22,358 bases of DNA from a virus. Shown here one piece after another: positions 1,029 to 10,616 of the stretch (positions within the stretch are counted from its first letter, which is position 1; each line of letters begins with the position of its first letter). The notes under the pieces were generated by a model. The model was not told the DNA's origin, made no database searches, and worked only from the letters and a program-made list of their open reading frames with translations. The stretch covers positions 1 to 22,358 of IMG/VR virus record IMGVR_UViG_3300005528_000219. The stretch is one strand, 5' to 3'. The translations under genes were made by a program, and so were the position numbers.

Positions 1029-1685
1029 ATGAGAACCAAAATGATTATGACATATATCCTCGCTTGTAGTCTTGGGTTAATAACGGCAGGTTGCACAACA
1101 TTTAGTAAAGATCCTAATAAGACTGTAGAAATTCCAGCAAACAAACTGGATAATATTCCGCAGTGGTATCTAGCAAAAGATCCAGAAGACAAGAAACACA
1201 TTGTTGTTGTAGCTACAGACATATCTCGTGATATGCAGTTTGCAATTGACAAAGCAACACTTAACGCAAAGATTCAATTAGCATCTAGGTTAAAAACAGA
1301 TGTTGATTCTCTAATGCGTGAATCTACAACCGAATCAGGAAACACTGGCTCTGGTAATGTTGAACGAGAAATTGATCGTGTATCAAAAGTTCGTGTTAAA
1401 CAAGCACTTGGATTCTTTAAACGAGAGAATGTTGCAGTGTTTAGAGAAGGAGATAACTATCGTGCATATGTACAATACAAAATTTCTATTGAAGATGTAC
1501 ATCAGTTTACACGAAAGGGAGACAACAAATCTCGTGAAGATCGTTTAAAAGAATTGGATGGAGAGAAAGTATCTTCTGCGCCCAATGTTGACTTGTTAGA
1601 TGTTAATAATGAAGAATATAAACGTCTCCGTGCTGAAGCATTACAAAAACCAAATGCTGTCGTACAAAGATATACAATTCAATAA
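1029..1685 (+). CDS. LPP20-like outer-membrane lipoprotein
   Basis: A 218-residue protein with a lipoprotein signal: basic N-terminus, hydrophobic core and a lipobox LITAGC with the acylated Cys at residue 22. The following 'IPQWYLAKDPED', the Ala-rich 'DKATLNAKIQLASRLKTDV' helix and the 'YRAYVQYKISIE' strand match the LPP20 family (surface or periplasmic lipoproteins of unknown mechanism). The Asp-Pro-rich stretch after the lipobox probably forms a linker. The start has a purine-rich SD (AGAAAG) just upstream and lies 1 nt after the previous gene, so the pair is likely co-translated. Phage-encoded envelope lipoproteins can act in exclusion or host-surface remodelling, but nothing here fixes the role. 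Confidence 0.75.
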   Translation: MRTKMIMTYILACSLGLITAGCTTFSKDPNKTVEIPANKLDNIPQWYLAKDPEDKKHIVVVATDISRDMQFAIDKATLNAKIQLASRLKTDVDSLMRESTTESGNTGSGNVEREIDRVSKVRVKQALGFFKRENVAVFREGDNYRAYVQYKISIEDVHQFTRKGDNKSREDRLKELDGEKVSSAPNVDLLDVNNEEYKRLRAEALQKPNAVVQRYTIQ

Positions 1686-1686
1686 T

Positions 1687-2115
1687 ATGAAACAGAAGTG
1701 GATTGACGCATTTATGGATACAGCTGAGAGATTCGCTCAGCTGTCCAGTGCTAAAAGACTGCAGGTCGGTGCGGTTGTCGTAAAAGACAATCGTATCATC
1801 TCAATTGGATATAATGGTATGCCATCTGGTTGGGACAATAATTGCGAACAAATAGTACAACATTCAGATGATACAGTCGAGTTAAAGACAAAAGATGAAG
1901 TAATCCATGCTGAAGCCAATGCAATTAGTAAACTAGCAAAAAGTGGAGACAGCGGCAATGGCGCATATCTATTTTGCACTCATGCACCTTGTATTCATTG
2001 TGCAAAGATCGTATATGGTGCAGGGATAAGTAAAGTGTTCTATCGTGATTCTTATCGAGACGATAGTGGTATTGATTTTTTAACTAAATGTAACATTGAA
2101 GTTACTAAAACATAA
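1687..2115 (+). CDS. dcd: Deoxycytidylate (dCMP) deaminase
   Basis: A 142-residue zinc-dependent deaminase that converts dCMP to dUMP and feeds dTTP synthesis, as in T4 gene cd. Visible motifs are 'KRLQVGAVVVKDNRIISIGYNG' near residues 23-44, the zinc/proton-shuttle motif H74-A-E76-A-N, and the second zinc motif P101-C102-x-x-C105. The length fits the family. I chose ATG 1687 (MKQKWID) because upstream in-frame starts overlap the lipoprotein gene and lack family similarity. It follows the previous stop by 1 nt. The symbol follows common phage usage; some annotations use cd or comEB instead. Confidence 0.93.
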   Translation: MKQKWIDAFMDTAERFAQLSSAKRLQVGAVVVKDNRIISIGYNGMPSGWDNNCEQIVQHSDDTVELKTKDEVIHAEANAISKLAKSGDSGNGAYLFCTHAPCIHCAKIVYGAGISKVFYRDSYRDDSGIDFLTKCNIEVTKT

Positions 2116-2126
2116 AGGAAATTTAA

Positions 2127-2672
2127 ATGAAGACAGTAGGAGATAAACTCGATTCATTCGTTGTTACTGGAGTTCGTCCTGGACAACCACAAGACGCATT
2201 TTTTGATATTACGGAGAAATCATTTGAGGGAAAGTGGAAAGTAATCGTTTACTATCCAAAAGATTTTACATTCGTATGTCCTACAGAAATTGTAGCATAT
2301 GATAAATTGTTTCAAGATTTTACAGATCGTGACGCAGTTCTCTTGACAGGTAGCACTGATAATGAGTTTTGTAAAGTTGAATGGCAAAGATCACATGCTG
2401 AATTAAAACAAATTAAACATATTCAATTTGCTGATACTCAGCGTGAGTGGGATAAATCCTTGATCGATCAACTTGGTGTGTTCTATAATCCAGCAGGTGC
2501 TGCTTTGCGTGCTACATTTATTGTAGATCCAGAGAATGTAATTCAGCATGTGACTGTGAACAATCTAAATGTAGGTCGTTCACCTGAAGAGACATTGCGT
2601 ATCCTTGATGCACTTCAAACTGGCGAGCTATGCGCATGTAATCGTACTGTTGGTGGAGAAACACTTAAATGA
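2127..2672 (+). CDS. ahpC: AhpC-type 2-Cys peroxiredoxin
   Basis: A 181-residue peroxiredoxin that reduces H2O2 and organic peroxides. The peroxidatic site is PKDFTFVCPTE with Cys51, and the C-terminal 'ELCACN' holds Cys169 and Cys171. This three-cysteine arrangement is the one known from AhpC proteins reduced by AhpD (Mycobacterium type) rather than the usual AhpF-dependent type. The AhpD gene is found two genes downstream, which supports that reading. An AAGGAA SD precedes ATG 2127. The stop overlaps the next start (ATGA), so translation is coupled. Peroxiredoxin genes are uncommon in phages; it may protect the infected host or virion DNA synthesis from oxidative damage. Confidence 0.95.
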   Translation: MKTVGDKLDSFVVTGVRPGQPQDAFFDITEKSFEGKWKVIVYYPKDFTFVCPTEIVAYDKLFQDFTDRDAVLLTGSTDNEFCKVEWQRSHAELKQIKHIQFADTQREWDKSLIDQLGVFYNPAGAALRATFIVDPENVIQHVTVNNLNVGRSPEETLRILDALQTGELCACNRTVGGETLK

Positions 2673-3082
2673 TTGATTGTATGATCATTGGAGATAGTAT
2701 CGCAGTTGGTGTGGCGATGGCTAGACCTGATTGTGTAAGTTATTCTCGTGGTGGATGGAACAGCTGGCAATGGAATAAAGATTATTTGTCAGTGGCTTCT
2801 ACTCGTCAGCCAAAAACTTTAATTATTAGTCTGGGTGCTAATGATCATAAGGGTGTTAAAACAGAACAAGAGTTGCGAAAAATGCGTGCTGCTATAAAAG
2901 CAGATCGTGTCTTCTGGATTAGTCCAGGAGCAGAAAGAAAACCTGTTCCTCAAGAAGCAATAGAAAAAATTGCTAAAGAATATAATGATGTAGTTCTTCC
3001 AAGACCTACTCAACATATGAGTTCTGATGGAATACATCCCACAGGTCGTGGATATAAATTATTAGGAGATCAAACAAAATGA
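2669..3082 (+). CDS. SGNH/GDSL-type hydrolase-like protein
   Basis: A short (137-residue) SGNH-hydrolase fold. Block I has G8-D9-S10 with the candidate nucleophile Ser10, block III is the G56-A-N58-D motif, and block V is D120-G-I-H123-P with the Asp/His pair. A Gly-Gly near residues 28-29 could supply the oxyanion Gly. It is much shorter than most SGNH esterases (180-250), so it is a minimal single-domain form. No signal peptide. It lies between ahpC and ahpD with ATGA overlaps at both ends, so it is co-translated with the peroxide genes. Substrate unknown; a deacylase or lipid-peroxide role is only a guess. Confidence 0.82.
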   Translation: MIDCMIIGDSIAVGVAMARPDCVSYSRGGWNSWQWNKDYLSVASTRQPKTLIISLGANDHKGVKTEQELRKMRAAIKADRVFWISPGAERKPVPQEAIEKIAKEYNDVVLPRPTQHMSSDGIHPTGRGYKLLGDQTK

Positions 3083-3585
3083 GTTTTATTGACTCTGTTA
3101 AAGAAGCATTACCAGAATACGCAAAGGATACTAAATTAAATATTGATTCAGTTCTTTTACGTAGTACTCTAGATGCAGATGAGGCGATGGGTTGTGCAGT
3201 TGCTGCATTAGCAGCAACTGGTAATGGTAAGTTATTAAATTTACTACTTGCTGATGCACCATCTGATGCTACTGCTGCAATGACTGCTGCAAGTTTGATG
3301 GCGCAGAACAATGTTTGGTATCCATATGTTGAGATGACGAATGATCCTAATCTAAAAGGATTGCCAGCACAATTAAGAATGAATGCCATTACTACTAGTG
3401 GTGGTACAACAAAAGGTAGATTTGAAGCGTATTCTCTTGCTGCAAGTATTGTTGGCAAATGTCATTTTTGTGTGAAGGCACATTATGATGGACTAAAAAG
3501 ACTAGGTTACACTGTTGAACAATTGCGAGACATTGGACGAATTGCTGCAGTTATGAATGCATGTGCAAAAGTATTAAATAATTAA
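3079..3585 (+). CDS. ahpD: AhpD alkylhydroperoxidase / AhpC reductant
   Basis: A 168-residue AhpD-family protein. The N-terminus 'EALPEYAKDTKLNIDSVL' is typical of true AhpD. The catalytic set is visible: Glu116, the redox pair Cys128-x-x-Cys131 (CHFC) and His135. In characterised systems AhpD takes electrons from a lipoyl protein (SucB with Lpd) and reduces the AhpC disulfide. The three-cysteine AhpC encoded 400 bp upstream is the matching partner. The length is close to the bacterial 170-180. The start overlaps the SGNH gene by 4 nt. It ends the operon; a promoter region starts 5 nt after the stop. A phage-encoded AhpC-AhpD pair is unusual and looks functional. Confidence 0.93.
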   Translation: MSFIDSVKEALPEYAKDTKLNIDSVLLRSTLDADEAMGCAVAALAATGNGKLLNLLLADAPSDATAAMTAASLMAQNNVWYPYVEMTNDPNLKGLPAQLRMNAITTSGGTTKGRFEAYSLAASIVGKCHFCVKAHYDGLKRLGYTVEQLRDIGRIAAVMNACAKVLNN

Positions 3586-3643: not shown

Positions 3644-3672
3644 GGATAACCCTGCAAGCAATAGGGTTATCC
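3644..3672. repeat. Perfect 10-bp inverted repeat between promoters P1 and P2
   Basis: GGATAACCCT (3644-3653) and AGGGTTATCC (3663-3672) pair perfectly around a 9-nt loop. No T-run follows, so it is not a standard intrinsic terminator. It ends 9 nt before the -35 of P2 and could be an operator or a hairpin in P1 transcripts. Confidence 0.6.
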
Positions 3673-3681
3673 AGAAACTGC

Positions 3682-3710
3682 TTGACAAATAACCAAATTT
3701 AGGGAATAAT
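3682..3710 (+). promoter_or_regulatory. Strong sigma70-like promoter P2 of the tRNA-array leader
   Basis: TTGACA (3682-3687), a 17-nt spacer, and AATAAT (3705-3710, 5/6). Transcription should start near 3716-3718. The -10 and the bases after it (AATAATCTCT, then a pyrimidine-rich run ending TATT) are nearly the same as in the promoter of the ATPase gene at 16954-16982, so this is a recurring promoter type of this genome. Confidence 0.75.
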
Positions 3711-3720
3711 CTCTTCTATT

Positions 3721-3843
3721 ATGAAACTCAGATCGATATCCACTGTAGCAAAGCATTTACCACCAACAAGTGGTTGGACATGCTCACGCCCACAGTTTGG
3801 ATATGCCATTGAGAATGATACTGGGGGTTTGGCAAGTAGATAG
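3721..3843 (+). CDS. Putative 40-codon leader peptide containing all 20 amino acids
   Basis: ATG 3721 to TAG 3841-3843 encodes 40 residues beginning MKLRSISTVAK. Every one of the 20 amino acids occurs, including single Trp, Cys, His, Tyr, Phe, Gln, Glu, Asn and Asp. The ATG is about 3-5 nt from the predicted start of P2 RNA and has no well-placed SD, so translation would be leaderless or nearly so. The last codons form the 5' arm of the hairpin at 3825-3870, and the stop codon falls in that hairpin's loop. This is the layout of leader peptides in amino-acid operon attenuators. It could also be a chance ORF in a structured untranslated RNA; no homolog is known to me. Confidence 0.4.
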   Translation: MKLRSISTVAKHLPPTSGWTCSRPQFGYAIENDTGGLASR

Positions 3844-3870
3844 AGATACATCTGTATACTTACCAAACCC
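3825..3870 (+). promoter_or_regulatory. Candidate antiterminator hairpin
   Basis: GGGTTTGGCAAGTA (3825-3838) pairs with TACTTACCAAACCC (3857-3870) at 13 of 14 positions (one C-A mismatch). Its 3' arm contains AAACCC (3865-3870), which is also the first part of the terminator stem, so the two hairpins exclude each other. The 5' arm lies within the last codons of the leader ORF, so a ribosome reaching the stop at 3841 would cover it. Confidence 0.6.
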
Positions 3871-3900
3871 TCTGAGATGAAAATCCAGAGGGTTTTTTGT
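3865..3900 (+). terminator. Intrinsic terminator before the tRNA array
   Basis: AAACCCTCTG (3865-3874) and CAGAGGGTTT (3886-3895) form a 10-bp stem with an 11-nt loop, followed by TTTTGTTTT. This is a standard rho-independent terminator lying between promoter P2 and the first tRNA, so RNA from P2 reaches the tRNAs only by read-through. Confidence 0.8.
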
Positions 3901-3905
3901 TTTAT

Positions 3906-3920
3906 TGCTCTTTAAAAATT
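3906..3920 (+). promoter_or_regulatory. rrn-type boxA antitermination site
   Basis: TGCTCTTTAAAAATT matches the bacterial rRNA-operon boxA (TGCTCTTTAACA) at 11 of 12 positions. In rRNA leaders boxA RNA binds NusB-NusE and makes RNA polymerase resistant to Rho. Here it sits just after the terminator and 12 nt before the first tRNA, the right place to protect a long untranslated transcript. Confidence 0.6.
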
Positions 3921-3931
3921 CGGGATTCTGT

Positions 3932-4007
3932 AGGGGATTCGCCAAGTTGGTAAGGCATCGGATTTTGATTCCGACATGCGGTGGTTCGAGTCCATCATCC
4001 CCTGCCA
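3932..4007 (+). tRNA. tRNA-Gln(TTG)
   Basis: Acceptor AGGGGAT pairs with ATCCCCT, discriminator G, CCA encoded. The anticodon stem TCGGA/TCCGA closes a loop TTTTGAT with TTG at positions 34-36. First gene of the array; reads CAA and, by wobble, CAG. Confidence 0.95.
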
Positions 4008-4046
4008 AACAAATGTGCATTTGCACGAGGAAGTGTGCATCTGTTT
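4007..4046. repeat. Hairpin filling the Gln-Lys tRNA spacer
   Basis: AAACAAATGTGCA (4007-4019) pairs with TGTGCATCTGTTT (4034-4046) at 12 of 13 positions, counting two G-U pairs. The left arm begins on the last base of the tRNA-Gln CCA and the right arm ends one base before tRNA-Lys, so the whole spacer folds and brings the two tRNA ends together. Probably a processing signal. Confidence 0.6.
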
Positions 4047-4120
4047 GGGGGTATAACTTAGTGGTAAAGTAGTAGGCTTTTAACCTATTAACCAGAGTTC
4101 GATTCTCTGTGCCCCTACCA
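4047..4120 (+). tRNA. tRNA-Lys(TTT)
   Basis: Acceptor GGGGGTA/TGCCCCT (first pair G-U), discriminator A, CCA encoded; anticodon loop CTTTTAA gives TTT. Reads AAA/AAG, heavily used in the AT-rich genes here. Confidence 0.95.
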
Positions 4121-4128
4121 AATTCAGT

Positions 4129-4204
4129 GGTGTCTATAGTGTAGTGGTCTGCACTTCTTGCTGTGAACGAGAGAGTATGAGTTCGATCCTCATTAGACAC
4201 CCCA
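4129..4204 (+). tRNA. tRNA-His(GTG)
   Basis: Anticodon loop CTGTGAA (GTG). The acceptor GTGTCTA/TAGACAC is extended by an encoded G at position -1 (4129) opposite C73, the identity pair required by bacterial HisRS. CCA encoded; the next tRNA starts 1 nt after it. Confidence 0.95.
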
Positions 4205-4205
4205 T

Positions 4206-4281
4206 GCAACTCTAGCTGATGTGGTCATAGCGGTGGTCTGAAGAGCCATTGAAACAGGTTCGATTCCTGTGGGTTGCACCA
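4206..4281 (+). tRNA. tRNA-Phe(GAA)
   Basis: Acceptor GCAACTC/GGGTTGC, A73, CCA. Loop CTGAAGA gives GAA; the anticodon stem GTGGT/GCCAT uses two G-U pairs. Position 37 is G rather than the usual A, so the common i6A-type modification would be absent. Confidence 0.88.
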
Positions 4282-4290
4282 AAAGATTTT

Positions 4291-4365
4291 ACCGATGTAG
4301 CTCAGTGGTAGAGCAGTGTCTTGATAAGGCATTGGTCGGTGGTTCAATCCCACTCATCGGTACCA
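4291..4365 (+). tRNA. tRNA-Ile(GAT)
   Basis: Acceptor ACCGATG/CATCGGT, A73, CCA. Loop TTGATAA gives GAT, reading ATC/ATT. D-arm and T-arm are regular. Confidence 0.94.
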
Positions 4366-4371
4366 AGATAC

Positions 4372-4446
4372 GCTTCGTTAACTCAGCGGTAGAGTGTCTC
4401 CCTTACAAGGAGAAGGTCGGCAGTTCGATCCTGTCACGAAGCACCA
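4372..4446 (+). tRNA. tRNA-Val(TAC)
   Basis: Acceptor GCTTCGT/ACGAAGC, A73, CCA. A strong anticodon stem TCTCC/GGAGA with loop CTTACAA (TAC). Confidence 0.95.
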
Positions 4447-4451
4447 ATACT

Positions 4452-4525
4452 GGGGGATTAGTTAAATGGGATAACATTGGCTTTGCAAGTCAAGATTGAG
4501 AGTTCGATTCTCTCATCCTCCACCA
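4452..4525 (+). tRNA. tRNA-Ala(TGC)
   Basis: Acceptor GGGGGAT/ATCCTCC includes G3-U70, the AlaRS identity pair. Loop TTTGCAA gives TGC; A73, CCA encoded. One nt separates it from the next tRNA. Confidence 0.95.
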
Positions 4526-4526
4526 T

Positions 4527-4601
4527 ACCCGATTGGTGAAATGAATATCACATCTTGCTACGAACGAGAAGTTGGGAGTTTGATTCTCTCATTGGGTGCC
4601 A
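4527..4601 (+). tRNA. tRNA-Arg(ACG)
   Basis: Acceptor ACCCGAT/ATTGGGT, discriminator G, CCA. The anticodon loop CTACGAA is the same as in E. coli tRNA-Arg(ACG), the normal substrate of TadA, so A34 is probably edited to inosine by the host. Confidence 0.93.
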
Positions 4602-4608
4602 AAATTAT

Positions 4609-4700
4609 GGAGAGTAATGCAGGTGCGTTGGTGCGCCGACCAGCCTTGAAAACTGGGTTCTCAGAAATGGGATGGGGTTCGACTCCTCTGCTCTCCGCCA
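4609..4700 (+). tRNA. tRNA-Ser(TGA)
   Basis: A 92-nt class II tRNA with a long variable arm. Acceptor GGAGAGT/GCTCTCC, discriminator G, CCA. Loop CTTGAAA gives TGA; the innermost anticodon-stem position is a C-A mismatch. Confidence 0.93.
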
Positions 4701-4709
4701 TTATACATA

Positions 4710-4717
4710 CATAAGTA
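4710..4717 (+). promoter_or_regulatory. Candidate late promoter (CATAAGTA)
   Basis: CATAAGTA is close to the T4-type late motif nATAAATA (one base off in the core) and lies 20 nt before the oxygenase start at 4737. Similar GATAAGTA and GATAAATA motifs occur at 6959 and 10619. Confidence 0.35.
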
Positions 4718-4736
4718 GATAACAAAGGAGATACTT

Positions 4737-5309
4737 ATGAATTTAGATGTTGATCAAAAAATTGTTGGTGACATGCCACTAGAGTTAATTAATAATCTTC
4801 TTAGTTCAATTGATGAAGAAGATTGGTATGCTGGTGATTATCGTCAACGTGTTGGTAATATGAGTGATTGTAATTCAATACCAATTTATCACACTCCTTT
4901 GTGCGCTTCTGGTAGATGTGATATGGAACCAATCAGAAGTATACGCAAAGAAAAAATGTACAATAAGTTTTTTCCACTTGTTGAGCCGATATTAGAAGAG
5001 TTAAGAAAGTATTATGAGTTTAGACAGTACTCTTGTTTTATGGCAAGATTACATCCAGGTGGAATAATTGGTGAACATATTGATCGTGGTAGTTTCTTAG
5101 AACTCTGTCATCGTGTGCATGTACCACTAAAATCTAATTCAAAAATAAGATACGTAATTGATGGAAAATCTTATTATTGGGAACCAGGAAAGATTTATGA
5201 GTTTAACAATACTAAAATGCATGGCGTATATAATGAATCAGATGAACATCGAATTCATTTAGTTGTAAATTTGTATAATCTTACTGACGAACAACTAGAA
5301 AAAGATTAA
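4737..5309 (+). CDS. Aspartyl/asparaginyl beta-hydroxylase-type Fe(II)/2OG dioxygenase
   Basis: A 190-residue oxygenase on a double-stranded beta-helix fold. Visible are the iron ligands H114-x-D116 ('GEHIDRG') and distal H162 ('KMHGVYN'), plus R172 ('EHRIHLV') placed to hold 2-oxoglutarate. 'ARLHPGG' and 'RVHVPLKSN' match the Asp/Asn beta-hydroxylase/AspH pattern. Such enzymes are frequent in T4-like marine phages, where targets are unknown; hydroxylation of a protein or of an amino-acid derivative is likely. A consensus AAAGGAG SD lies 6 nt before ATG 4737. The gene is an island inside the tRNA array, with tRNA-Ser(GCT) starting 1 nt after its stop, so it shares transcripts with tRNAs. Confidence 0.85.
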   Translation: MNLDVDQKIVGDMPLELINNLLSSIDEEDWYAGDYRQRVGNMSDCNSIPIYHTPLCASGRCDMEPIRSIRKEKMYNKFFPLVEPILEELRKYYEFRQYSCFMARLHPGGIIGEHIDRGSFLELCHRVHVPLKSNSKIRYVIDGKSYYWEPGKIYEFNNTKMHGVYNESDEHRIHLVVNLYNLTDEQLEKD

Positions 5310-5310
5310 T

Positions 5311-5398
5311 GGAGAGTTGGCAGAGTGGTTAATGCAGCAGTTTGCTAAACTGTCGTTTCGAAAGAGGCGCATAGGTTCGAATCCTATACTCTCCGCCA
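5311..5398 (+). tRNA. tRNA-Ser(GCT)
   Basis: An 88-nt class II tRNA. Acceptor GGAGAGT/ACTCTCC, discriminator G, CCA. Anticodon stem CAGT/ACTG with loop TTGCTAA (GCT); reads AGT/AGC. The acceptor resembles that of tRNA-Ser(TGA) upstream. Confidence 0.95.
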
Positions 5399-5402
5399 AA
5401 TT

Positions 5403-5494
5403 AGTGGGTTAGTTTAACGGTAAAACAGCGGATTTATATCCCGTGTGCAACAGATAATTGGCCAATATGGGTTCGACTCCCATACCCACTACCA
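5403..5494 (+). tRNA. Atypical tRNA, apparent anticodon TAT (Ile?)
   Basis: A 92-nt tRNA-like gene. Acceptor AGTGGGT/ACCCACT, A73, CCA, regular D-arm (GTTT/AAAC) and T-arm (ATGGG/CCCAT). The anticodon stem GCGGA/CCCGT has an A-C mismatch next to the loop TTTATAT, which gives TAT. The variable region is about 22 nt (GTGCAACAGATAATTGGCCAAT is split over 5439-5460) but makes no clear stem; a class I body with this insert is abnormal. Amino-acid identity is uncertain, and it may be non-functional or specialised. Confidence 0.65.
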
Positions 5495-5499
5495 GATAT

Positions 5500-5581
5500 G
5501 CCCCTGTGGACAAATTGGTAAAGTCACCTCTCTCAAACAGAGGAGTATGATATCTCCGTTCGAATCGGAGCAGGGGCACCA
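5500..5581 (+). tRNA. tRNA-Leu(CAA)
   Basis: Class II, 82 nt. Acceptor GCCCCTG/CAGGGGC, A73, CCA. Stem CCTCT/AGAGG with loop CTCAAAC (CAA). A consensus promoter starts 2 nt after its CCA. Confidence 0.94.
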
Positions 5582-5582
5582 G

Positions 5583-5611
5583 TTGACATGCAAGATTGTT
5601 TGTGGTATAAT
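5583..5611 (+). promoter_or_regulatory. Perfect-consensus sigma70 promoter inside the tRNA array
   Basis: TTGACA (5583-5588), exactly 17 nt, TATAAT (5606-5611): a full consensus match. The predicted start is near 5617-5619, only a few bases before tRNA-Leu(TAA) at 5621. The spacer shares a TGCAAGATT block and TATAATAGT with the promoter at 5960-5988, so the two look duplicated. Confidence 0.85.
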
Positions 5612-5620
5612 AGTGTTATT

Positions 5621-5703
5621 GCGAGTGTGGTGAAATTGGTAAACACAGGAGACTTAAAATCTCCCGCTTCGGCTTGTCGGTTCGAGTCCGACCATTCGCA
5701 CCA
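5621..5703 (+). tRNA. tRNA-Leu(TAA)
   Basis: Class II, 83 nt. Acceptor GCGAGTG/CATTCGC, A73, CCA. Stem GGAGA/TCTCC with loop CTTAAAA (TAA), reading the AT-rich TTA codon. First gene after the consensus promoter, with almost no 5' leader. Confidence 0.95.
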
Positions 5704-5704
5704 T

Positions 5705-5779
5705 ATCCCCATAGTATAATGGATAATACAGTAGTCTTCTAAACTACGAATAGAGGTTCGATTCCTCTTGGGGGTGCCA
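5705..5779 (+). tRNA. tRNA-Arg(TCT)
   Basis: Acceptor ATCCCCA/TGGGGGT, discriminator G, CCA. Stem GTAGT/ACTAC, loop CTTCTAA (TCT), reading AGA, the frequent Arg codon in these genes. Confidence 0.94.
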
Positions 5780-5786
5780 AAAATTT

Positions 5787-5863
<77 letters not shown>

Positions 5864-5868
5864 AATAT

Positions 5869-5943
5869 GCACAGGTGACTGAATGGTAAGGTAGCAGTCT
5901 GCAAAACTGATGTTCGTGGGTTCGATTCCCACCCTGTGCTCCA
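5869..5943 (+). tRNA. tRNA-Cys(GCA)
   Basis: Acceptor GCACAGG/CCTGTGC with U73, the CysRS identity base, then CCA. Loop CTGCAAA gives GCA. Confidence 0.94.
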
Positions 5944-5959
5944 AGTTGCAAAACAGTTG

Positions 5960-5988
5960 TTGTCTTGCAAGATTAGTTGTAGTATAAT
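5960..5988 (+). promoter_or_regulatory. sigma70-like promoter, twin of 5583
   Basis: TTGTCT (5960-5965), 17 nt, TATAAT (5983-5988). The spacer TGCAAGATTAGTTGTAG closely matches that of the promoter at 5583, and both continue TATAATAGT. Transcription should start near 5995 and run through the structured spacer into tRNA-Glu. Confidence 0.75.
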
Positions 5989-5994
5989 AGTTTA

Positions 5995-6120
5995 TTCAAA
6001 AGTCCTCTCTAAGTCGTGTGTGAATTCATACGCCTGAGGCAAGCGTGGCATAGGATGTTGCAATTCGCCTACACACCTCCCATGCAAGCAAGTTTGGTAG
6101 TTCTTGATAAAAACTGCCAC
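5995..6120 (+). ncRNA. Structured non-tRNA spacer RNA between promoter and tRNA-Glu
   Basis: About 125 nt transcribed from the promoter at 5960 before tRNA-Glu. It ends in a clear hairpin, GGTAGTT (6096-6102) with AACTGCC (6112-6118), and also has ACGC/GCGT and GTGTG/CACAC complements. Base composition is more balanced than in the AT-rich genes. A frame open from GTG 6016 runs on through tRNA-Glu, so coding is unlikely. A leader or stable small RNA is the best description; no known family is recognised. Confidence 0.4.
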
Positions 6121-6123
6121 TAT

Positions 6124-6198
6124 GCACGATTCGTCTATCGGTTAGGACACTGCCCTTTCACGGCAGGAAGAGGAGTTCGATTCTCCTATCGTGTACCA
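6124..6198 (+). tRNA. tRNA-Glu(TTC)
   Basis: Acceptor GCACGAT/ATCGTGT (first pair G-U), A73, CCA. Stem CTGCC/GGCAG with loop CTTTCAC (TTC). One nt separates it from tRNA-Tyr. Confidence 0.93.
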
Positions 6199-6199
6199 T

Positions 6200-6285
6200 G
6201 GGTTGTGAGAAGCATTGGTGACTTCAGCAGACTGTAAATCTGTCGCCTTATGGCATACGGGGTTCGATTCCCTGACAACCCACCA
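6200..6285 (+). tRNA. tRNA-Tyr(GTA)
   Basis: Class II, 86 nt, as expected for bacterial tRNA-Tyr. Acceptor GGGTTGT/ACAACCC, A73, CCA. Loop CTGTAAA gives GTA; the variable arm can pair. Confidence 0.95.
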
Positions 6286-6293
6286 GAATTTAA

Positions 6294-6370
6294 GGTGCGT
6301 TAGTTCAGTTGGTTAGAATACTTGCCTGTCACGCAAGTGGTCAGGGGTTCGAGTCCCCTACGCATCGCCA
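6294..6370 (+). tRNA. tRNA-Asp(GTC)
   Basis: Acceptor GGTGCGT/ACGCATC with one G-U pair, G73 (an AspRS identity base), CCA. Stem CTTGC/GCAAG with loop CTGTCAC (GTC). Confidence 0.95.
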
Positions 6371-6373
6371 GTT

Positions 6374-6447
6374 TGCGGAGTAGAGAAATGGTATCTCGAG
6401 AGTTTCATATGCTCTAGTTGATGGTTCGATTCCGTCCTCCGCTACCA
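6374..6447 (+). tRNA. tRNA-Met(CAT) with unpaired 1-72
   Basis: Acceptor TGCGGAG/CTCCGCT leaves a T-T mismatch at 1-72, a hallmark of bacterial initiator tRNA, but the anticodon stem AGAGT/GCTCT lacks the three G-C pairs of initiators. Loop TTCATAT gives CAT; A73, CCA. It could be initiator-like or an elongator with a frayed end. Confidence 0.85.
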
Positions 6448-6452
6448 AACGT

Positions 6453-6547
6453 GCCAGCGTTACTGGCTAGTGTGATCCGCACGACGAGAAGCAGATTGAC
6501 AACTGCAGGATGGTTCTCCCTTTGAATGGGGCATGAGTAAAATCATG
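6453..6547 (+). ncRNA. Hairpin-rich spacer upstream of the small ORF at 6533
   Basis: Three hairpins follow each other: GCCAG/CTGGC (6453-6467); GAGAAGCAG (6486-6494) with CTGC (6503-6506) and TTCTC (6514-6518) around a 7-nt bulge; and CATGA/TCATG (6532-6547), which would bury the ATG at 6533. It is clearly richer in G+C than the protein genes nearby. Possibly a structured leader; no known family. Confidence 0.35.
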
Positions 6548-6652
6548 GGTCGACCTAACCAGCGTTGGCAACACGAGAGTCCTTGTGATGGCGAGTGGGT
6601 GGAAGGCATGTGTGATGGAGAAACTGGTGCGATGTACACAATCCAGAAGTAA
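6533..6652 (+). CDS. Possible 39-aa small protein in the tRNA array
   Basis: ATG 6533 to TAA 6650-6652, beginning MSKIMGRPNQRW. It is hydrophilic, with two Trp, two Cys and a repeated 'CDGE' (residues 18-21 and 28-31). A GGGG run 2-5 nt before the ATG is badly spaced as an SD and the ATG sits in a hairpin. Base composition differs from neighbouring genes. It may be a real small gene or chance coding in a structured RNA. Confidence 0.3.
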   Translation: MSKIMGRPNQRWQHESPCDGEWVEGMCDGETGAMYTIQK

Positions 6653-6659
6653 ACTGATG

Positions 6660-6668
6660 TGCTATAAT
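6660..6668 (+). promoter_or_regulatory. Candidate extended -10 promoter before tRNA-Leu(TAG)
   Basis: TGCTATAAT: a perfect TATAAT (6663-6668) with the TGn extension, and no good -35 box 17 nt upstream. The predicted start near 6675 leaves about an 18-nt leader before tRNA-Leu at 6693. Confidence 0.5.
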
Positions 6669-6692
6669 TACCACGATCACAAGGAAGCATTT

Positions 6693-6775
6693 GCCCTGAT
6701 GGTGGAATTGGTAGACACGCTGGTCTTAGAAGCCAGTGCTTAGGCGTGAGAGTTCGAGTCTCTCTTGGGGCACCA
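6693..6775 (+). tRNA. tRNA-Leu(TAG)
   Basis: Class II, 83 nt. Acceptor GCCCTGA/TTGGGGC with two G-U pairs, A73, CCA. Stem CTGGT/GCCAG with loop CTTAGAA (TAG), reading CTN. Its CCA is the first part of a long inverted repeat. Confidence 0.94.
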
Positions 6776-6885
6776 TAATGAAATAGATTAACGAGAGCAT
6801 CATACTCCTGCCAGAGAAGTATGCTCAAGTCGGTTGGCAGACTGAGCGGATACTATATTATCCCGTTTAGTCTATTTCATTATGG
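6773..6885 (+). ncRNA. Structured spacer RNA bounded by a perfect 15-bp inverted repeat
   Basis: CCATAATGAAATAGA (6773-6787) and TCTATTTCATTATGG (6871-6885) are perfect complements. The left arm starts with the CCA of tRNA-Leu and the right arm ends on the first two bases of tRNA-Met. Inside, GAGC...ATACT (6795-6806) pairs with AGTATGCTC (6818-6826); its loop has CTGCCA (6808-6813), complementary to TGGCAG (6835-6840), a possible pseudoknot. A third hairpin uses 6840-6852 with 6859-6872 (13 bp, one bulge). No known RNA family is recognised. Confidence 0.65.
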
Positions 6886-6958
6886 TGATGTAGTTCAGTG
6901 GTAGAACATCTGCTTCATACGCAGTCGGTCGGTGGCTCGATTCCACCCATCACCACCA
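6884..6958 (+). tRNA. tRNA-Met(CAT), elongator-like
   Basis: Acceptor GGTGATG/CATCACC, A73, CCA. Loop TTCATAC gives CAT. The fully paired acceptor suggests an elongator. Its first two bases also belong to the inverted repeat of the upstream spacer. Confidence 0.92.
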
Positions 6959-6966
6959 GATAAGTA
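6959..6966 (+). promoter_or_regulatory. Candidate late promoter (GATAAGTA)
   Basis: GATAAGTA directly follows the tRNA-Met CCA and lies 11 nt before tRNA-Asn. It is one base from nATAAATA. Low-specificity motif. Confidence 0.3.
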
Positions 6967-6977
6967 GTAAAGAGTAT

Positions 6978-7052
6978 TCCGAGATAGCACAGCGGTAGTG
7001 CAGTTGACTGTTAATCAATTGGTCGTAGGTTCGATCCCTACTCTCGGAGCCA
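6978..7052 (+). tRNA. tRNA-Asn(GTT)
   Basis: Acceptor TCCGAGA/TCTCGGA, G73 (AsnRS identity), CCA. Stem GTTGA/TCAAT, loop CTGTTAA (GTT). Confidence 0.95.
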
Positions 7053-7057
7053 AATTT

Positions 7058-7131
7058 GCCCCATTAGCATGAAGGTCGTGCAGTCGCCTTGTAAGCGACA
7101 GGTGATAGTTCAATTCTGTCATGGGGCACCA
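7058..7131 (+). tRNA. tRNA-Thr(TGT)
   Basis: Acceptor GCCCCAT/ATGGGGC with the G1-C72, C2-G71 pairs used by ThrRS; A73, CCA. Stem GTCGC/GCGAC, loop CTTGTAA (TGT). Confidence 0.95.
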
Positions 7132-7138
7132 GTTTTAT

Positions 7139-7216
7139 CCGAGTGTAGCGCAGTCTGGTTAGCGCATCTGCTTTGGGAGCAGAGGGTCGTAGGTTCGAAT
7201 CCTACTACTCGGACCA
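7139..7216 (+). tRNA. tRNA-Pro(TGG)
   Basis: Acceptor CCGAGTG/TACTCGG, A73, CCA. Stem TCTGC/GCAGA with loop TTTGGGA (TGG), with G37 as is usual for Pro. The D-arm 'GCGCAGTCTGGTTAGCGC' is Pro-like. Confidence 0.95.
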
Positions 7217-7221
7217 AAATT

Positions 7222-7297
7222 GCTCCAGTAACTCAGCTGGTAGAGTAACTGATTAGTAATCAGTAAGTCGGGAGTTCGAATCTCTCCTGGAGCACCA
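7222..7297 (+). tRNA. tRNA-Thr(AGT)
   Basis: Acceptor GCTCCAG/CTGGAGC keeps G1-C72 and C2-G71, A73, CCA. Stem ACTGA/TCAGT with loop TTAGTAA gives AGT. An A34 Thr tRNA is rare in bacteria and is not a standard TadA substrate, so it may read ACT directly. Confidence 0.88.
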
Positions 7298-7314
7298 TGA
7301 TAAGGAAAACTAAA

Positions 7315-7512
7315 ATGTCAGACAATACACCTTTAACATTTAAAGAACAGTGGGAACAAAAGAAACTACTTAAACGTGTTAAGAAGAAAGCGAAGAAAAA
7401 TCTTCAAGCACAAGGATTTGGCAGAAGGGAAGCAACGAAACAAGTAAATGCTGCTTTAAATAGAATCTCTTCTAACAAACCTATTAAACGTGCAGCAGGT
7501 AGAGGTGGATAA
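7315..7512 (+). CDS. Small basic phage protein, 65 aa
   Basis: I chose ATG 7315 (MSDNTPLTF), which has an AAGGAAAA SD, over the ATG at 7297 that lies in the CCA of tRNA-Thr. The protein is strongly basic: two Lys clusters (KKLLKRVKKKAKK near residues 15-27) and a 'KRAAGRGG' tail, so it may bind nucleic acid. No family recognised. The stop overlaps the next start by one base. It is the first protein gene after a run of 16 uninterrupted tRNAs. Confidence 0.75.
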   Translation: MSDNTPLTFKEQWEQKKLLKRVKKKAKKNLQAQGFGRREATKQVNAALNRISSNKPIKRAAGRGG

Positions 7513-7736
7513 TGAGTGATGGTGGTAAAGGTAGCAAGCCAAGACCATTTTCAGTTGATCAAAAAACTTTTGATAATAACTGGGATGCTATTTTTGGTAA
7601 GAAAATAGATAATACAGGTGTGTTAAAAAATGAGTATCAAGATATTTTGTCAACAGAAGATTGTTTTGAAATCGAAGACAGAATCACTAGATATAATGAA
7701 GAAACTCAAGAAGTAAAGAAAGTAGTATCTCGATAG
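7512..7736 (+). CDS. Conserved small phage protein, 74 aa
   Basis: Begins MSDGGKGSKPRPFSVDQ; the 'KGSxPRPFSVDQxTFDxNWDxIFG' block recurs in aquatic phages (from memory; function unknown). Hydrophilic, no cysteine pair motif, no membrane segment. It is coupled to the gene before it (shared base at 7512). Its last 10 bases (7727-7736) overlap the 5' acceptor strand of tRNA-Trp, so the final codons are constrained by tRNA structure. Confidence 0.8.
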   Translation: MSDGGKGSKPRPFSVDQKTFDNNWDAIFGKKIDNTGVLKNEYQDILSTEDCFEIEDRITRYNEETQEVKKVVSR

Positions 7737-7800
7737 TGTAATGGCAGCATATCTGTCTCCAAAACAGCAGGTGGGGGTTCAAGTCCCTCTCGGGATGCCA
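7727..7800 (+). tRNA. tRNA-Trp(CCA)
   Basis: Acceptor ATCTCGA/TCGGGAT, G73 (TrpRS identity), CCA encoded. Loop CTCCAAA gives CCA. The 5' end overlaps the preceding protein gene by 10 nt, so cutting out the tRNA destroys that mRNA's 3' end. Confidence 0.93.
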
Positions 7801-7809
7801 GAAAATAAA

Positions 7810-8052
7810 ATGGAAACACTTGAACAATATATTCTATTAGAGAATAGATACCCACATGTCGCAAAGAATATCAAATTATTCTGGGGATCTAGTTATCTTC
7901 CAGATTACATAACGAATCTTATGCTTGATACAAGAAATGGAAAAAGAAAAGGATTTCCACCAGATGATGCGAAAGCATTGACAGACTTACTAAAAATACA
8001 TGATGATGTGTATCCAAGATACATAAAATATGAAATATGGGATAACGAATAA
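7810..8052 (+). CDS. Hypothetical protein, 80 aa
   Basis: Start ATG 7810 (METLEQYILLENRYPHVAK) was chosen because upstream in-frame codons lie in tRNA-Trp. The ATG at 7795 is also in frame but inside the tRNA. The protein is a soluble alpha-type sequence: 'KNIKLFWGSSYLPDYITNLMLDTRNGKRKGFP' in the middle, acidic 'PDDAKALTDLLKIHDDVYP' near the end. It resembles small conserved proteins of T4-like phages but I cannot name the family. tRNA-Gly(GCC) starts 2 nt after the stop. Confidence 0.75.
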   Translation: METLEQYILLENRYPHVAKNIKLFWGSSYLPDYITNLMLDTRNGKRKGFPPDDAKALTDLLKIHDDVYPRYIKYEIWDNE

Positions 8053-8053
8053 T

Positions 8054-8129
8054 GCGGGTGTAATTCAGTTGGTAGAATGTTTGCTTGCCAAGCAAAATGT
8101 CACGAGTTCGAGTCTCGTTACCCGCTCCA
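8054..8129 (+). tRNA. tRNA-Gly(GCC)
   Basis: Acceptor GCGGGTG/TACCCGC, U73 (GlyRS identity in bacteria), CCA. Stem TTTGC/GCAAA with loop TTGCCAA (GCC). It begins one base after the upstream stop codon. Confidence 0.95.
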
Positions 8130-9946: not shown

Positions 9947-10616
9947 TATATTAGCATTCAAAAGTTTTTCTCCATTTTTACCTGAGATAGAAATACCTGT
10001 TTACATTTCTACATTAGAAGAAAAATATTTAGAAAAACTTTTACAATTTTGTTTGAATAAAATTCCTAGTATATTTAAAGAAACTGATGAGAATTTAATA
10101 CCACCTGGAAAAACATCTCCTCCACCTGCTCATTGGTTAACTAATAGAGGTTGGCAATACAATATTCTTGATAATCAAGACGAATCAATTGTTTATTTAA
10201 AACAACACATATTAAAATCTTATCATGAGTATTGTGAAGATAATGATGTTACACCAGAAAAAATTTATGCGCATGGATGGTTAAATGAATGTCCTACTGG
10301 AACAAAAATTCACCCTCATAATCATGAACATGTTTTAGACGGAAATAATCCTCTGGAACTTTCTTATCTTTCTGGAAATGTTTGCATTCGTACTAAAAAT
10401 ACTGTGACTAATTTTAAAAGTCCATTTGTAAATATGTGGGCTCCGATTAACAATGAGAGTGGAAAGGTATATATTTTCCCATCTTATGTGACACATTCGA
10501 CTTCAGAGAATAACGAAGAAGAAACAAGGATCACTTTAGCGTTCGACTTAATAACAGAATACATATATAACCTAAATTCGGATCATTATAATGGCACTTT
10601 TTGCGAGTTAAAATAA
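9939..10616 (+). CDS. 2OG-Fe(II) oxygenase (2OG-FeII_Oxy_5-like)
   Basis: A 225-residue protein with the pattern of the phage 2OG-FeII_Oxy_5 family: 'AHGWLNECPTGTKIHPHNHEH' at residues 111-131 with candidate iron ligands in H125-P-H127-x-H129, 'YLSGNVCIRT' near 143-152, 'VYIFPSYVTHST' with distal ligand H186, and R197 in 'ETRITLAFDL' for 2-oxoglutarate. The exact ligand set (His replacing Asp) cannot be fixed by eye. Such genes are frequent in T4-like marine phages with unknown substrates. It overlaps the cupin gene by 8 nt and ends just before a late-promoter-like motif and tRNA-Gly(TCC). Confidence 0.8.
   Translation: MNNILAFKSFSPFLPEIEIPVYISTLEEKYLEKLLQFCLNKIPSIFKETDENLIPPGKTSPPPAHWLTNRGWQYNILDNQDESIVYLKQHILKSYHEYCEDNDVTPEKIYAHGWLNECPTGTKIHPHNHEHVLDGNNPLELSYLSGNVCIRTKNTVTNFKSPFVNMWAPINNESGKVYIFPSYVTHSTSENNEEETRITLAFDLITEYIYNLNSDHYNGTFCELK

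Follow-up and report, generated by a model that had tools for sequence, protein, structure and literature searches.

The window, meaning the whole analysed stretch of 22,358 bases, is a virus record in which ARAGORN identified 28 tRNAs that together serve all 20 amino acids. Directly ahead of its main tRNA array, a promoter, a short open reading frame (ORF), two overlapping stem-loops, and a boxA-like element were located, and these features, together with those of the array itself, are as follows.

3682 to 3710, plus strand: promoter P1, TTGACA-17-AATAAT, 11/12 matches, 10 nt before the ATG
3721 to 3843, plus strand: leader ORF of 40 codons with stop TAG at 3841-3843, its peptide containing all 20 amino acids
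3825 to 3870, plus strand: hairpin 1 (predicted antiterminator), arms 3825-3838 and 3857-3870, the 5' arm being the end of the leader ORF; from folds and paired changes
3865 to 3898, plus strand: intrinsic terminator, stem 3865-3874 with 3886-3895, T-run 3893-3898; from folding, conserved in relatives
3906 to 3920, plus strand: boxA-like element TGCTCTTTAAAAATT, between the terminator and the first tRNA, the single exact site in the window
3932 to 4007, plus strand: tRNA-Gln(UUG), first gene of the putatively controlled array (ARAGORN)
3932 to 8129, plus strand: main tRNA array, with tRNAs for all 20 amino acids (ARAGORN)
4607 to 4700, plus strand: probable tRNA-Ser(UGA), read by eye, absent from the ARAGORN and Rfam lists
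5583 to 5611, plus strand: internal promoter, perfect 12/12 consensus, directly 5' of tRNA-Leu(UAA); from the promoter scan

The first 13,306 bases of the window recur unchanged within an IMG/VR contig of 161.7 kb that carries a gene for a T4-type major capsid protein (PF07068, E 1.4e-142), and such a capsid protein was found in three of the seven contigs tested among those bearing relatives of the window leader (hereafter family 1). Genes for a dCMP deaminase, an AhpC-like peroxiredoxin, an SGNH/GDSL hydrolase, and an AhpD-like CMD protein lie in a run upstream of the module (1600-3585); relatives of the AhpD-like protein are very common in viral contigs, with at least 598 confirmed among at least 600 candidate stretches. 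A gene of the aspartyl/asparaginyl beta-hydroxylase family (PF05118) is located inside the tRNA array, at 4737-5309. A perfect inverted repeat, GGATAACCCT/AGGGTTATCC, occupies 3644-3672, directly before the module promoter, and similar repeats were seen by eye 5' of second promoters in some relatives, which suggests that the repeat is part of a repeated hairpin-promoter cassette.

A preliminary description of this DNA had proposed a translation-sensing attenuator composed of the TTGACA-17-AATAAT promoter, a 40-codon ORF ending in a stop at 3841, a hairpin of 13/14 bp at 3825-3870 whose 5' arm is the end of that ORF, and an intrinsic terminator sharing AAACCC with the hairpin, and all four elements proved to be present. 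Hairpin 1 pairs GGGTTTGGCAAGTA (3825-3838) with TACTTACCAAACCC (3857-3870) through 13 of 14 positions with one C.A mismatch, the terminator pairs AAACCCTCTG (3865-3874) with CAGAGGGTTT (3886-3895), and the shared AAACCC lies at 3865-3870. The segment 3823-3900 folded at -31.7 kcal/mol, compared with -16.45 ± 3.25 kcal/mol for shuffled sequences (n = 200; z -4.69; 0 as stable), and the fold of the whole leader, 3711-3931, which had been recommended as a check, gave a z of -3.38 with 0 of 200 shuffles as stable. Two states were predicted for the window: the free RNA at -31.7 kcal/mol and the terminator alone at -18.3 kcal/mol. A consensus terminator scan of the window did not list the terminator at 3865-3898, which is visible by folding, probably because 11 nt separate its uninterrupted arms and the scan accepts loops of 3-8 only. 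An upstream stem was also predicted within 3711-3931 and does not pair with the 5' arm, an observation that bears on the question of a protector (1:2) stem for the window sequence only.

The module was found on 80 viral contigs in IMG/VR, with 58 distinct leaders. These contigs came from two DNA-pattern scans and one profile scan; 56 were recovered through the terminator pattern, which holds no peptide information, and 24 more through the peptide, the 62 loci of the profile scan comprising 36 already in the set and 26 new contigs, two of which were dropped as truncated (L149, L173). The leader ATG was kept in 80/80 loci, with conservation at the peptide level and leader lengths of 37-44 aa. 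A tRNA was within reach at 73 of the 80 loci, and the first one was tRNA-Gln(UUG) in 74/74 entries with a tRNA within 600 nt (the phage of the window being counted twice, as the window and as L087), while 7 further entries had none in the sequence available. Since the sequence upstream of the module varies between lineages (by eye) and the first tRNA is always Gln, the module seems to travel with the array.

The promoter scored at least 10/12 in 75/80 family-1 loci. P1 stands only 10 nt before the ATG in the window, so its mRNA should be nearly leaderless, and the distance of 6-11 nt from the -10 box to the ATG in 78/80 loci indicates that family-1 mRNAs in general are leaderless or nearly so; an SD-like 4-mer was absent in 77/80 loci. 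Beyond the terminator, TGCTCTTTAAAAATT at 3906-3920 is a boxA-like element, resembling the antitermination motif of rRNA operons and lambda. The core TGYTCTTTAAMAATT occurred with at most one mismatch in 33 of 44 distinct terminator-tRNA spacers and with at most three in 44/44, figures for which the background tally sampled the same loci, real sites included. By sequence, a boxA-like site thus lies upstream of stable-RNA genes, as in the rRNA type. The near-leaderless start, the boxA-like site, and the 20-amino-acid content of the leader go beyond what had been described before.

The relatives, which had been named as the place to look for compensatory changes, with loss of both stems as the outcome that would speak against an attenuator, conserved both. 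Folded singly, each stem formed in 42/42 distinct family-1 segments, with paired changes. GGGTTT/AAACCC alternates with GGGTTTT/AAAACCC through T/A insertions in both arms; in L187, both hairpin-1 arms are wholly replaced, GGGTGGGAT pairing with ATCCTACCC with one G-U; and the terminator stem appears as CTCTG/CAGAG, CTCTA/TAGAG, or CTCGA/TCGAG. Pairs were not counted on the MAFFT alignment because the two arm types are out of register there, and the pairing evidence accordingly consists of folds and arm swaps. Among 22 distinct pairs of hairpin-1 arms, cognate arms paired at -17.57 kcal/mol vs -14.13 kcal/mol for swapped ones, with 19% of foreign 3' arms on average pairing at least as well as the cognate; for 14 distinct terminators, cognate halves gave -16.64 kcal/mol vs -15.03 kcal/mol for swapped ones. 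The predicted folds and paired changes together describe a mutually exclusive antiterminator and terminator with a common strand. The minimum free energy (MFE) structure of the free RNA was the antiterminator in 45/48 distinct family-1 segments (3/48 departing from it), and the RNA past a ribosome at the stop had the terminator as its MFE structure in 48/48, so that the attenuator reading gained support from the relatives, the switching itself being inferred. Free RNA favoring the antiterminator makes readthrough the predicted default of an untranslated transcript. In family 1, the 5' arm begins 4-8 codons ahead of the stop, which is the position of a ribosome finishing the ORF.

The peptide encoded by the window leader, MKLRSISTVAKHLPPTSGWTCSRPQFGYAIENDTGGLASR, contains all 20 amino acids, and the set is complete at residue 33, before the arm. 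Among the 58 distinct leaders, 35 contain 20 amino acids and 23 contain 19. Of these 23, 21 have no Val, one has no Gln, and one has no Cys; a tRNA-Val lies downstream in 23 loci whose leader has no Val. Random 35-codon windows (200,000, taken from 288 long reading frames in these phages, each running from ATG to stop over 150 codons or more on one strand or the other, and not all of them necessarily genes) reached 20 amino acids with P = 1.75e-4 and at least 19 with P = 1.0e-2. Shuffling residues within alignment columns gave a mean of 18.36 amino acids vs 19.60 observed, and 0 of 5000 shuffles reached the observed value, a result that held at every redundancy cut tried, including 13 leaders below 70% identity; relatedness therefore does not explain the completeness. 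Residues shift while the set stays, with Cys found at five alignment columns among 38 leaders. Several amino acids occur in exactly one copy (Cys in 56/58 leaders, Trp in 57/58, His in 57/58, and Tyr in 58/58). In 58/58 leaders, the full set was complete upstream of the hairpin arm, in a region from which a stalled ribosome would not block the arm, and 0 of 503 single-copy residues fell in the arm part vs 71 expected by length, in part because of the base-pairing constraint on the arm. The last sensing codons of the window leader, E31, N32, and D33, are no further than a ribosome width from the 5' arm, and stalls there may therefore be poorly read.

At the codon level, the window leader covers 25 of 27 tRNA species before the arm, compared with a mean of 17.1 for random windows (0/3000 reaching 25). 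The number of distinct codons per leader exceeded synonymous resampling in 40/40 distinct DNA leaders (mean 31.8 vs 29.6), although these 40 are related and, among the 12 listed, one fell below 0.05, and tRNA-species coverage under synonymous resampling was significant in 0/16 loci. Completeness at the level of isoacceptors, which would be a stronger claim, is therefore not claimed.

A second family of leaders was found before tRNA arrays at 84 loci on 81 contigs (three contigs counted twice), with 62 distinct leaders of 46-52 residues. It was first met in an amino-acid-filtered scan of short ORFs (136 of 5144 ORFs passed, nested starts counted), enlarged by three scans of IMG/VR, and recovered again by an architecture-only scan without the amino-acid filter. 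A profile comparison of the two families detected no homology (probability 0.14%). All 20 amino acids are present in 58 of the 62 distinct family-2 leaders and 19 in the other 4, and 0 of 5000 column shuffles (with 49 of the 62 distinct leaders) reached the observed completeness. Pairing and folds were analyzed for 69 of the 84 loci, comprising 49 distinct leaders and 48 distinct segments. In 49/49 leaders, the ORF end (AGGGTCC, GGGGTCC, or AGGGTTCC) is able to pair with the 5' strand of the terminator that follows; the whole set precedes the arm in 46/49, three losing one amino acid without the arm part. The MFE structure of the free RNA was the antiterminator in 47/48 segments (the exception being 1/48), and the terminator was the MFE structure past a ribosome at the stop in 48/48. 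The arm begins 7-12 codons before the stop, and only part of it would lie under a ribosome that has reached the stop. SD-like sites occur in 78/84 loci, which makes near-leaderless initiation a trait of family 1. A tRNA lies 265-1030 nt downstream in 80/84 loci, and a T4-type capsid protein was found in two of the eight family-2 contigs tested, of 345 and 383 kb.

Long hairpins were predicted between attenuator and first tRNA in several family-2 loci (L009 7361-7710; L016 ~10100-10450; L038 ~5060-5410), with a recurring core, GGGAACG..GGGCGGCCTACCGGATGG in L009, recognized by eye; Rfam returned tRNA and tmRNA matches only for these three loci. Beta-type or permuted tmRNA genes (RF01850, RF04321) are carried on contigs of tRNA-array phages (L009 284-761; L022 430-853).

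The relation between leader and downstream genes was traced with the architecture alone, that is, with any short ORF that can pair through its end with the 5' strand of the following terminator. Applied to all strands with at least three tRNAs, this gave 187 matches, of which 175 belong to the two families and 10 are further distinct ones. Two of the ten were left out of the exact test, as they resemble translated tRNA-gene sequence by eye (L208 4187, L190 5039); L022 and L023 are complete, leaving six incomplete leaders to be tested. L071 repeats L068. These six list 70 of the 71 amino acids of the tRNAs in their own sub-arrays, the single missing one comparing with 12.2 expected (exact P 7.0e-11); random ORF windows left 19.4 uncovered, and 0 of 20,000 did as well. 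With all ten matches included, 3 were uncovered vs 15.2 expected (P 3.9e-9), and with downstream tRNAs counted past the next leader, 9 were missing vs 18.2 expected (P 8.8e-10). Some phages have two attenuators with differing lists, each before its own part of a split array (L068 599 and 2412; L078 8931 and 10550). The second leader of L068 (2412) holds, before the arm, exactly the 16 amino acids that have tRNAs following, and it omits Cys, Asp, Glu, and Tyr, whose tRNAs lie upstream behind another leader. The second leader of L078 (10550) lists 16 of 17, omitting Asp, Glu, and Tyr, which belong to the preceding sub-array, and Val, which is downstream and forms the single exception. In L024, the leader omits Asp, Glu, Leu, Pro, and Val, and none of these five tRNAs is downstream in the available DNA, all being in the other array. 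Within the two families, the leader contains 710 of 734 downstream tRNA amino acids in family 1 (56 loci) and 929 of 929 in family 2 (77 loci). Regulatory codons cognate to the product of the genes that follow are thus present in both families and in six other leaders.

On this evidence, we consider it likely that the module is a ribosome-mediated transcription attenuator that controls a phage tRNA array, with a leader selected to hold at least one codon for each amino acid of the array. RNA polymerase would initiate from the promoter at 3682, and a ribosome would begin at or within a few bases of the RNA 5' end. When all aminoacyl-tRNAs are plentiful, the ribosome would reach the end of the ORF in time and cover the 5' arm of hairpin 1, leaving AAACCC free to form the terminator, and transcription would stop before the tRNAs. 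When any charged tRNA is short, the ribosome would stall or lag upstream of the arm; the free arm would then capture AAACCC in hairpin 1, no terminator would form, and polymerase would continue into the tRNA genes. The boxA-like element would probably recruit host Nus factors that help polymerase through the long structured array. The benefit to the phage may be the replacement of tRNAs destroyed by host anticodon nucleases. In the window, the leader would probably sense a shortage of any tRNA and switch on the phage's own replacement set. The sensed input, which the preliminary description had lacked, is supplied by the amino-acid content of the leader and its relation to the tRNAs downstream.

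The same architecture might instead act as a timer of global translation speed, in which a race between ribosome and polymerase over 40 codons measures the mean elongation rate and an even amino-acid content merely makes the sample unbiased. The narrow range of leader lengths (37-44 codons), the nearly constant single copies of Cys, Trp, His, and Tyr without runs, and the first leaders of the two split arrays (L068 599 and L078 8931), which name 16 amino acids each and 11 beyond their own five before the next leader, would all fit such a device. We nevertheless regard it as unlikely, as a mean-speed timer does not predict that the second leaders, L068 2412 and L078 10550, omit amino acids whose tRNAs stand before them. 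Chance, meaning an ordinary terminator downstream of an arbitrary ORF in which all 20 amino acids occur by accident, can practically be dismissed. All 20 amino acids occur in 31 of 2479 distinct short ORFs (35-52 aa, loci L006-L082), so a single such ORF alone proves little; however, the architecture-only scan of the same 2479 ORFs gave 15 matches (counting nested starts), 6 of them with the complete set, and conservation in 80 and 84 loci refutes a chance origin.

Two further explanations place the function in the peptide. The ORF could encode a micro-protein, with hairpin and terminator merely ending its mRNA and the tRNAs being transcribed from other promoters; the conserved peptide, with invariant M, L, W, R, and G in 15 leaders, and a promoter-like site (at least 9/12) between terminator and tRNA in 21 of 44 distinct spacers are in keeping with this. 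Residues change position, however, while the amino-acid set stays complete, and this property is common to two leader families without detectable homology; four leaders had no PHROGs match at E 10, and the phage of the window has no good promoter past the terminator (best 6/12). Moreover, the RNA arm is read in two frames in both families: GGGTTT in frame 2 in 74 family-1 loci and frame 0 in 5, and the family-2 core in frame 1 at 62 loci (43 distinct leaders) and in frame 0 at 22 (19 distinct leaders), which indicates that the RNA is kept and not the peptide end. We therefore judge a micro-protein to be very improbable. The chances appear slimmer still for a nascent-chain arrest peptide of the TnaC/SecM type that responds to a single ligand or condition. 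Control of attenuators by arrest peptides is known, and family 1 has a conserved GW..(S/T)R core, yet family 2 shares the architecture and the completeness without that core, and the C-terminal end tracks the RNA arm and changes frame with it.

Control by the putative attenuator would be only partial, given the perfect internal promoter at 5583, from which the later tRNAs can be made without the attenuator, and the promoter-like sites in those 21 of 44 spacers.

In the structural features tested, the module would work like an amino-acid-operon attenuator, the race model of which has been set out for trp and his (PMC1183508). The trp, his, ilv, and thr attenuators share with it a short leader ORF with regulatory codons cognate to what the operon supplies, an exclusive antiterminator and terminator with a common strand, and a terminator before the structural genes. 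The phage module differs in that it controls tRNA genes, in a phage, and its leaders draw on as many as 20 amino acids, many in a single copy, whereas amino-acid-operon leaders have runs of one kind. Family 1 is nearly leaderless, and no protector (1:2) stem was seen in the one sequence examined, from which the untranslated RNA is predicted to read through; the untranslated default of the trp operon is the reverse. T-box riboswitches respond to uncharged tRNA by switching between terminator and antiterminator, as the phage module is predicted to respond to tRNA supply, but they bind the tRNA directly and use no translation; Rfam gave no T-box model at threshold in the window (27 matches, all tRNA). 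A boxA-like TGYTCTTTAAMAATT between promoter and stable-RNA genes is also a feature of rRNA operons and lambda nut, but the phage site lies after a putative attenuator. What is new is an input that takes in all the amino acids of the array together, an output consisting of tRNA genes, and the occurrence in phages.

The preliminary description had known of no phage tRNA array under such control, and a search of the open-licence PMC literature likewise showed no similar system among the papers listed. The matching passages of PMC10221431 deal with attenuators of virulence and with the title of a talk. The reasons for which phages carry sets of tRNAs, and the circumstances in which these come into use, remain under debate (PMC10264068). 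The proposal in that paper that phage tRNAs serve as counter-defence against host anticodon nucleases offers a reason for a phage to replace tRNAs lost during infection; the paper concerns anticodon-loop mutations, its passages on this subject describe no control of array expression, and 'attenuat' and 'promoter' occur 0 times in its main text.

Among cultured phages, DNA searches gave matches at tRNA genes or their immediate surroundings (best 40 of 613 and best 20 of 63 records), and leader queries in tblastn found either nothing or weak matches, with best E values of 0.5 and 2. In seven named tRNA-bearing phages, one stretch each (L091, L289-L294), three architecture matches were found, none within 1.5 kb before a tRNA, and a profile search of genome contigs with the family-1 alignment confirmed 0 relatives among 40 candidate stretches. 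By these searches, in which the architecture scan covered portions of a few cultured genomes, the module is seen only in uncultivated contigs. A 24-nt near-copy of the boxA stretch, a match to leader DNA at E 0.8 among the best 20 of 61 records, is present in Klebsiella phages; in the two inspected, both Sugarlandvirus (L295 1501-1524; L296 1501-1524), it stands ahead of genes for small proteins, and no tRNA is annotated within 1.5 kb of it.

A broader reading, to which we give about an even chance, is that these are 'checklist' attenuators, in which each leader lists at least the amino acids of the tRNAs that follow, so that the loss of any one tRNA, for example through a host anticodon nuclease, would switch on the array that replaces it, and that such a device originated, or was put together anew, on more than one occasion among T4-like phages and phages whose genomes exceed 340 kb. 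The complete-set leader ORF with its overlapping terminator is a searchable signature for regulated tRNA arrays in other genomes, and the module is a candidate for a natural RNA that senses translation capacity as a whole. That a leader lists the amino acids of its array suggests selection on sensing tRNA supply during infection, and the question of why phages have tRNA sets, and of when these come into use, becomes directly testable with a small reporter.
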